From assembly GCF_002287885.2 (NCBI RefSeq), contig NZ_CP016768.2, positions 372,001-436,000 of the forward strand: a stretch of 64,000 nucleotides of DNA. Direction: 5' to 3'. The DNA comes from Candidatus Nanopelagicus limnes. GTDB taxonomy: Bacteria > Actinomycetota > Actinomycetes > Nanopelagicales > Nanopelagicaceae. The notes under the pieces are model-generated. The model made no database searches. It was given only the letters and a program-made list of their open reading frames with translations, and was not told the origin of the DNA. Made by a program: the position numbers and the translations under genes. Shown here piece after piece: positions 59,179-60,671 of this stretch; position 1 is the stretch's first letter, and each line of letters starts with the position of its first letter.

Positions 59179-59370
59179 ATGCGCATTTCAGAGCTCAGGT
59201 CTCGATTAGCAGATTACTTTCCAGATTCAGATACCTATGCCAGGGATATCATCCACACTGAGCTTGGCGGCATAAGCGTTAATGCCGCGATTGAGATTGG
59301 CATGGAGCCAGATGAGATTTGGAAGGCGGTTATCCGCCATAACCCTTCGATGCCGGCTAAGTACAGATAA
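59179..59370 (+). CDS. DUF3046 family protein
   Basis: 63 residues, containing RLADYFPDSDTYARDIIHTELGGISVNAAIEIG and PDEIWKAV, matching the small actinobacterial DUF3046 family found just upstream of recA. Function unknown. It ends 28 bases before the LexA-type box. Confidence 0.85.
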   Translation: MRISELRSRLADYFPDSDTYARDIIHTELGGISVNAAIEIGMEPDEIWKAVIRHNPSMPAKYR

Positions 59371-59398
59371 CGGCGTGTCCTAGCCCGGTTTTACCCTT

Positions 59399-59420
59399 TC
59401 GAACAGTTGTTCGATACAAT
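59399..59420 (+). promoter_or_regulatory. LexA (SOS) box overlapping the recA promoter
   Basis: TCGAAC-AGTT-GTTCGA at 59399-59414 is a perfect match to the actinobacterial LexA operator (TCGAAC-N4-GTTCGA). It abuts a good -10, TACAAT, at 59415-59420, so bound LexA would block polymerase. No clear -35 is seen, which is common for these promoters. lexA itself is outside the window. Confidence 0.9.
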
Positions 59421-59432
59421 TAGCCTGCCCAA

Positions 59433-59498
59433 CCAGAGCGGATCCACAGTTCCGCTGGCACCTCGTGCCAGCCGTCAGTGGAACTCCGTACCTTCTGG
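59433..59498 (+). promoter_or_regulatory. Large nested stem-loop in the recA 5' leader
   Basis: Four nested pairings form one long hairpin: CCAGA (59433-59437) with TCTGG (59494-59498), CGG (59439-59441) with CCG (59486-59488), AGTTCC (59448-59453) with GGAACT (59480-59485), and CTGGCAC (59455-59461) with GTGCCAG (59465-59471) around a three-base loop. It begins about 6 bases after the expected transcript start and is clearly GC-richer than its surroundings. No known RNA family is recognised. Confidence 0.65.
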
Positions 59499-59576
59499 AC
59501 CGAACAATATGACCTCGCTGCTGGAGTTAAAAAAACCCAAGAGCTGGTCAAGGAGATGAAAGGAAACAAATCAACT

Positions 59577-60671
59577 ATGGCCTCTGCAAACAGAGAACCA
59601 CAAGAAGATAAAAAAGAAGATAAACGATCTAGCGATCGTGCTAAATCCCTAGATACCGCCCTTGCCCAAATCGAGCGTCAGTTCGGTAAAGGATCGGTAA
59701 TGAAAATGGGAGATCGCAAAGCTGTTGCCATGGAGGTTATTCCAACTGGCTCAGTTGCATTAGATATCGCACTCGGCGTCGGTGGCTTGCCACGTGGTCG
59801 CGTTGTTGAAATCTATGGCCCAGAATCATCTGGTAAAACAACGGTGGCATTACATGCAATTGCTAATGCACAAAAAGCTGGCGGTATTGCAGCATTTATT
59901 GATGCTGAGCATGCCCTTGATCCTGAGTATGCAAAGAAACTTGGCGTTGATATTGATGCGCTACTAGTTTCCCAACCAGATACAGGCGAGCAGGCACTTG
60001 AAATTATGGATATGTTAGTCAGATCAGGTGCGATTGATATTGTCGTAGTTGACTCAGTTGCAGCTTTAGTACCAAGAGCTGAAATTGAAGGCGAGATGGG
60101 TGACTCACATATGGGTCTACAAGCCCGCCTTATGTCACAAGCGCTTCGTAAAATGACTGGTGCGCTTCACCAATCAAATACCACTGCAATCTTTATCAAT
60201 CAGCTGCGAGATAAGATCGGTGTTTTCTTTGGTTCACCAGAGACAACTACAGGTGGTAAAGCATTAAAGTTTTATGCATCAATTCGATTAGATGTGCGCA
60301 GAATTGAAACCTTAAAAGATGGTCAAGATGCGGTTGGTAATAGAACTCGCGTCAAGATTGTTAAGAACAAGGTTGCGCCCCCATTTAAGCAAGCAGAGTT
60401 TGACATCATCTATGGCGTTGGAATCAGCCGTGAGGGCTCTCTAATTGATATGGGTGTTGAAGCTGGCATCGTTAAGAAATCTGGCGCCTGGTTCACCTAC
60501 GAAGGTGATCAACTAGGTCAGGGTAAAGAAAATGCCCGCGCCTTCTTAATTGATAATCCAGATCTTGCAAATGATATTGAGAAGAAGATTCGGGCATCAT
60601 ATGTGCCAGCTGATATCGACCCTGCATTAGTGGCAGCAGTTGATGAGGCTACAGCTGATGTTGAGTTCTAA
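59577..60671 (+). CDS. recA: Recombinase RecA
   Basis: About 364 residues from ATG 59577. Walker [10 protein letters not shown] at 81-89, Walker B region [20 protein letters not shown], and the [24 protein letters not shown]-binding loop are all present. It forms the recombination filament and triggers LexA cleavage. Upstream ATG 59556 and GTG 59478 are in frame. I chose 59577 because the extra residues are not part of the RecA family and AAAGGA lies 12 bases before it. No intein. It is controlled by the LexA box upstream. Confidence 0.95.

Follow-up and report, generated by a model that had tools for sequence, protein, structure and literature searches.

The window (the whole 64,000-nucleotide stretch analyzed here, from Candidatus Nanopelagicus limnes) carries on its plus strand a recA gene preceded by a LexA-type promoter, a long stem-loop, and a second, separate hairpin. 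We call the upstream LexA-type promoter P2, after the naming used for mycobacterial recA, where P2 lies upstream of P1. The recA product, 364 amino acids long from the ATG at 59577, scores 578 bits against TIGR02012 (cut-off 325). The features of the locus are as follows:

59398–59414, plus strand: SOS box (predicted LexA operator) TTCGAACAGTTGTTCGA of P2, from the sequence and a layout shared by family leaders
59415–59420, plus strand: -10-like TACAAT of P2, from the sequence and the hairpin spacing in leaders
59433–59498, plus strand: covarying stem-loop, from the RNAfold fold and covariation
59433–59437/59494–59498, plus strand: outer stem of the stem-loop, CCAGA/TCTGG, 5 bp
59438–59442/59485–59489, plus strand: second stem, GCGGA/TCCGT, 5 bp
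59443–59447/59478–59482, plus strand: third stem, TCCAC/GTGGA, 5 bp
59443–59449, plus strand: TCCACAG box, a set distance before P1; in this genus it doubles as the 5′ side of the third stem
59454–59461/59465–59472, plus strand: inner stem, GCTGGCAC/GTGCCAGC, 8 bp, with a 3-nt loop
59473–59480, plus strand: -26 box CGTCAGTG of candidate promoter P1, RecA-NDp/PafBC type, by consensus pattern match
59489–59494, plus strand: -10 box TACCTT of candidate P1, 8 nt past the -26 box, by consensus pattern match
59510–59550, plus strand: second leader hairpin, TGACC...GGTCA, directly 5′ of AAGGAG, from folding z-scores
59577–60671, plus strand: recA

The SOS box and the -10-like TACAAT are both present in the sequence just upstream of the stem-loop, where a first-pass annotation of this DNA had placed an SOS-controlled promoter. 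Transcription from P2 probably starts near 59427, about 7 nt past the -10, which would give a 150-nt leader up to the ATG at 59577; the earlier estimate of about 150 bases agrees with this length, which is counted from a predicted start only. Most leader rows share the layout (21 genus leaders; 33 family rows including the window), and among the 40 leaders matching the search expression the distance from the P2 -10 to the hairpin is exactly 12 nt in 28, the remaining 12 mostly having an extra hairpin in between or a one-base difference.

The 66-base hairpin with a three-base loop described by the first-pass annotation is confirmed by RNAfold, by shuffling, and by sampling across the window. 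The segment 59425–59510 has a minimum free energy of -33.8 kcal/mol, compared with -20.3 on average for shuffled versions (z -4.6; 0 of 200 shuffles equally stable), and none of 10,656 66-nt windows sampled across the whole window (step 6, plus strand) matches the stability of the hairpin. The nesting of the pairings stands as first described, but their lengths, given as 5, 3, 6, and 7 bp, do not: RNAfold forms helices of 5, 5, 5, 1, and 8 bp, with a single C-G pair between the third and inner stems. The GC-rich patch noted at the same time is borne out as well, with a GC content of 64% in the hairpin, 47% in either flank, and 42% in the whole window, in which only 0.02% of 66-nt stretches are equally GC rich. 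Likewise, the statement that no known RNA family is recognizable holds against Rfam 15, which gives no match up to an E value of 5 within 4 kb; in 201 bases the top-scoring model, for an animal microRNA, reaches 16 bits where its gathering score is 90.

A long GC-rich stem between P2 and recA could in principle act as an attenuator, a pause site, or a terminator-like element on P2 transcription. However, the GC stem lacks a T-run, 59340–59620 contains no terminator-like site, and neither a conserved competing stem nor an attenuator partner was found, so that the terminator-like option raised at first pass is unsupported. We regard a role of this kind as very unlikely, and a terminator or attenuator was rejected on the absent T-run.

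At the DNA level, the 3′ half of the hairpin reads CGTCAGTG-GAACTCCG-TACCTT (59473–59494), a match to the RecA-NDp consensus. This consensus is given as tTGTCRgtg-8nt-TannnT in PMC5656591, which also describes P1 reporters, and mycobacterial recA P1 is a RecA-NDp promoter that depends on PafBC (PMC8223512 for the PafBC link). The site in the window resembles mycobacterial P1 in its -26 GTCRGTG, its 8-nt spacing, its TANNNT, and its position 3′ of the LexA-controlled P2 and before recA; it follows the consensus from GTC onward and differs in the preceding base, which is C where the mycobacterial consensus has T. It differs further in lying within a covarying hairpin, in the 3′ arm. As in known RecA-NDp/PafBC systems, the genome has genes for both PafB and PafC, encoding two adjacent WYL/WCX proteins with tatC alongside, of which one carries HTH_PafC (PF19187, 95.8 bits) and the other matches PDB entries 7p5x and 9fnd and the PafBC structure 6sj9. 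The site at 59473–59494 thus matches a PafBC-type promoter and is a candidate P1, with a transcription start predicted near 59501, 3′ of the hairpin. Both promoters are presumed to work. With the P1 start past the hairpin, P2 transcripts alone would contain the hairpin, and a shorter, hairpin-free transcript would be expected from the second promoter motif in the 3′ half.

Because the 3′ arm is a P1-type promoter, part of the sequence conservation at this site is promoter derived. The first-pass reading of the element as a leader structure had overlooked P1 in the 3′ arm and needs to be amended to that extent, while its structural core is upheld by compensated pairing, described below. The overlap also raises the alternative that the pairing is a functionless by-product of promoter conservation, given that the -26, -10, and CCACA boxes account for much of the fixed sequence.

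A 66-nt search pattern that fixed everything except the inner 25 bases and a few others matched 93 of 296 family genomes, with one copy each; only the free columns of these 93 matches count as evidence, since the remaining bases were set by the pattern. The 203 unmatched genomes include genera g16, g3, g9, and g12, others with altered or missing elements, and incomplete genomes. All 71 distinct sequences form the nested hairpin with identical outer stems, and a few differ mid-hairpin. A covariance model built from 33 leaders was applied to 296 class genomes. Of the 28 from the family, 27 have one copy each, the exception being a genome of genus g9 (G032); outside the family the model gave only weak matches, in 6 of 268 genomes (E values of 0.002–0.08), fewer than expected by chance at that threshold. 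The motif occurs on GTDB contigs of Candidatus Nanopelagicaceae, Candidatus Planktophila, and acI bins. By these searches, the leader element is specific to the Nanopelagicaceae (acI actinobacteria). Within the family, the recA leaders of two g9 loci (L039, L040) lack the hairpin, and those of g12 (L043, L048) and g5 (L052–L054) look different. A search of viral contigs with RecA returned 12 relatives, with best segments 30–71% identical. Leaders of the Nanopelagicaceae type also appear in records titled Bifidobacterium breve (L097, L099, L128, L136, L152), Clavibacter (L109, L134), and Streptomycetaceae (L162, L169); these titles are probably wrong.

An alignment (A6) run through RNAalifold yields little covariation, because the search pattern behind A6 had held the stems constant. 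Ranking all 1,953 column pairs of 69 distinct 66-nt leaders by an APC-corrected G statistic (the three-mismatch sequences G315 and G320 excluded) places pair 3-64 first, with 48 A-T, 17 T-A, 4 C-G, and no broken pairs. Pair 24-38 ranks second and 26-36 fourth, while columns 17-45, in third place, combine as C-G, U-A, U-G, and G-A; at pair 12-49, C-A replaces C-G in 13 of the 69. Across 33 aligned leaders the predicted structure has a covariation score of 0.220, compared with 0.060 ± 0.010 for column shuffles (0 of 500 as high) and 0.016–0.068 for structures slid along the alignment. Column shuffles leave relatedness in the data; arm permutations were run on distinct arm pairs. When the arms of the inner stem were permuted among species (48 pairs), the native pairing stood out at z -14.1, with 0 of 1000 permutations as good. 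The outer stem offers only 4 distinct arm pairs, and 44 of 1000 permutations do as well.

Genus g16 was searched with a pattern in which AGAGCGG and CCGTACCTTC alone were fixed, matching 88 of 135 genomes. Its third stem takes the forms UCCAC/GUGG, UCCAU/AUGG, UCCAA/UUGG, UCUAA/UUAGG, CCGC/GCGG, and CUCUAC/GUAGAG, and permutation of 38 distinct arm pairs gives z -7.0 (0 of 1000); the g16 inner stem gives z -7.9 (0 of 1000). Three genomes are exceptions in which the third stem pairs poorly (G246, G252, G278). The -26 box of g16 meanwhile changes from GTCGGTG to GTCGTTG, GTCGTTA, GTCGCAG, or GTAGCAG, in contrast to mycobacterial P1. That the third stem is rebuilt while this box drifts indicates that the pairing is retained independently of the box. 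Between the covarying stems, an internal loop, UCCGC/GCCGUC, is conserved; the g16 set used for this loop has 61 rows; of the rows left out, eight were used for the CACA spacing described below, most of the others appear to be exact repeats, and G299 is a distinct sequence.

These observations bear directly on the by-product alternative: the inner stem contains nearly no promoter letters and yet shows the strongest covariation, and the third stem is rebuilt in g16. The chance that the pairing has no function of its own is therefore close to negligible in our judgment, and the view that it merely reflects promoter letters was rejected, being contradicted by the covariation results. Neither the lack of covariation nor the rapid loss of pairing in close relatives that the first-pass annotation named as counterevidence was found, compensated pairing extending across most genera of the family. 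There is, in sum, a strong comparative case for a conserved structure of the recA leader.

The 5′ arm of the third stem coincides with a further element that appears to act as DNA. Among 296 genomes of the class, the pattern TCCAC-N24-TGTCRG-N10-TANNNT has 100 typed matches in 77 genomes, compared with 6 for a reversed control, and of the next two free bases after TCCAC the first is A in 77 matches and the second is G in 73, out of 100. These class-wide counts indicate that a TCCACAG box, 28 nt before the -26 box, is typical of PafBC-type promoters beyond recA. Its core resembles the DnaA box consensus, TTRTCCACA. In the family, with the P1 -10 as the reference point, the -26 position is preceded by CACA at 28–29 nt in all 66 distinct g16 sequences and in 69 of 71 others, a spacing kept even where the box falls in the apical part of the hairpin rather than in a stem arm. 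The accessible parts of the PafBC literature consulted do not mention a TCCACAG box.

The hairpin could be a DNA-level element of P1, a cruciform or single-stranded DNA hairpin that sets up PafBC–RNA polymerase or exposes single-stranded DNA. The whole hairpin overlaps P1, the CACA spacing is held at 28–29 nt, and the internal G-U and A-C counts of the main hairpin are nearly equal (G-U 13 and 21 against A-C 10 and 16 in the two sets; 34 against 26 in total), which leaves the strand test flat. Folding energy is similarly divided, the sense strand folding better in 54 of 71 sequences of one set and the antisense strand in 37 of 58 of the other. On the other hand, the pairing survives the drift of the -26 box, and the inner hairpin is near random in other promoters of the class, with mean z-scores of -0.33 at 67 TCCACA sites and -0.32 at 14 recA-type sites. 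These scores draw on the 100 pattern matches, a set believed complete, and 11 of the 14 recA-type sites are tied to recA by coordinates and three (G354, G368, G337) by similarity to G084. The same near-random spacers led us to reject a hairpin shared by every PafBC promoter. Bulges and internal loops, moreover, disfavor cruciforms.

A DNA-level element also sits poorly with additional covarying hairpins that lie upstream of P1, beside the P2 start. One or two extra hairpins occur between the P2 -10 and the main hairpin in g15 (L030, L031, L033), g17 (L044, L050), and g16 (L037), and one is found near the P2 start in G039. We selected 14 g15 and 18 g17 leaders of this kind by eye (G049 from L031), of which 13 + 10 entered the count of G-U and A-C pairs and 12 + 10 the arm permutation. 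The arms of the g15/g17 extra hairpin, which is located outside P1, covary (22 pairs, z -9.1, 0 of 1000), and internally there are 20 G-U pairs against 1 A-C mismatch, an excess that is the expectation for a sense RNA. The working form is thus likely to be an RNA rather than a DNA hairpin, and we consider a purely DNA-level role unlikely.

We propose that the element is a lineage-specific structured 5′ leader of the P2-derived recA mRNA, most likely a 5′-terminal stabilizer, whose 3′ half doubles as P1; the evidence leaves this reading evenly poised between right and wrong. Transcription from the LexA-controlled P2 would yield a recA mRNA carrying the structured leader, with the hairpin folding about 6 nt from the predicted start, or behind one or two hairpins beginning about there. 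At the DNA level, the same 3′ half would supply both boxes (-26 and -10) of P1, a second, PafBC-type damage promoter, whose transcripts would start just 3′ of the hairpin and so be made without it. The hairpin would shield the SOS-induced recA mRNA from 5′-end-dependent decay and, this protection being limited to P2 mRNA, the P1 and P2 messages are proposed to differ in stability. Among the roles considered here, 5′-terminal stabilization appears the most likely. There are precedents in the review PMC7509114, which reports that the recA mRNA of Acinetobacter baumannii is stabilized by a 5′ UTR stem-loop and cites work on the 5′-terminal stem-loop of Escherichia coli ompA. Like these, the present element is a stable stem-loop at or near an mRNA 5′ end, and the A. 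baumannii case shares the gene itself; it differs in phylum, in sequence, and in its internal promoter overlap, and stabilization would here be deduced by analogy. A 5′-end role is also consistent with the additional hairpins that some genera have at the P2 start. The approximately 5–6 unpaired nucleotides before the main hairpin are more than a classical 5′-terminal stabilizer would normally tolerate.

Conserved details such as the UCCGC/GCCGUC loop are more readily accounted for by a binding site than by a simple shield. This loop and the loop pair 17-45 make a binding role the main rival to stabilization: as a regulatory RNA, the loop and stems could be recognized by a small molecule or by a protein such as RecA or the WYL domains of PafBC, and provide feedback on SOS-derived recA mRNA. 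In favor of this, the loop lies between covarying stems, the base combinations at columns 17-45 resemble those of a structured loop pair, the leader has a second hairpin immediately 5′ of the ribosome site, and the WYL domains of PafBC have an Sm fold (PMC6789036). Yet GCCGUC is constrained as promoter DNA too, column 45 being the R of the -26 box, neither a switching partner nor a terminator was found for the leader, and PafBC is activated in vitro by single-stranded DNA (PMC11804915). We consider this role doubtful, if worth keeping in mind.

The stabilizer and the binding site have in common that the RNA layer is superimposed on a promoter, and a more elaborate version can be envisaged in which the two layers form a dual code. 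The DNA would then encode the PafBC-type P1 with its CCACA box, a so far unnamed element about 56 bp upstream of the P1 start, while the P2 RNA would form a sensory or protein-binding leader that reports which pathway made the recA message. Co-evolution of the DNA and RNA layers would account for the position of the CACA box, in a stem arm in some genera and in the apical part in g16, with its DNA spacing unchanged despite the rebuilding of the RNA stem. We see only a slim chance that this version is correct.

Few bacterial genes have been studied as thoroughly as recA, and its pair of actinobacterial promoters is well known from mycobacteria. A literature search, largely outside subscription papers, found no report of this recA leader. 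As far as searched, a PafBC-type P1 and 5′ stem-loops are known kinds of element, and their superposition with co-evolving pairing is new. If our proposal is true, a post-transcriptional layer would be added to the damage response in very abundant freshwater bacteria, and this 66-base stretch would be a clean natural case of promoter and RNA fold codes evolving together. The class-wide survey in addition indicates a fixed-distance CCACA box in PafBC-type promoters.

The second leader hairpin (59510–59550) has a mean folding z-score of -2.85 across 21 genus leaders and is weaker or absent outside the genus. Its outer 5 bp are invariant, and their covariation is hence nil; its inner part varies, with pairing retained in many genus leaders. 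Transcripts from either promoter would include this hairpin, which could modulate translation.

PafBC-type promoters were also observed elsewhere. At L075, around 1452–1540 on the minus strand (G000:C1 near 871050), such a promoter reads GTCGGTGGGGTTTAGTATCTT, with an SOS box just 3′ and CCCCAC/GTGGGG flanking its -26 box. Two further PafBC-like promoters of the genome of the window lie at L072 (1480–1540) and L074 (1486–1540, minus strand), each with CCCCACA close upstream, and one of these two has an ATG at most about 15 nt from its -10, in a leaderless-like arrangement.
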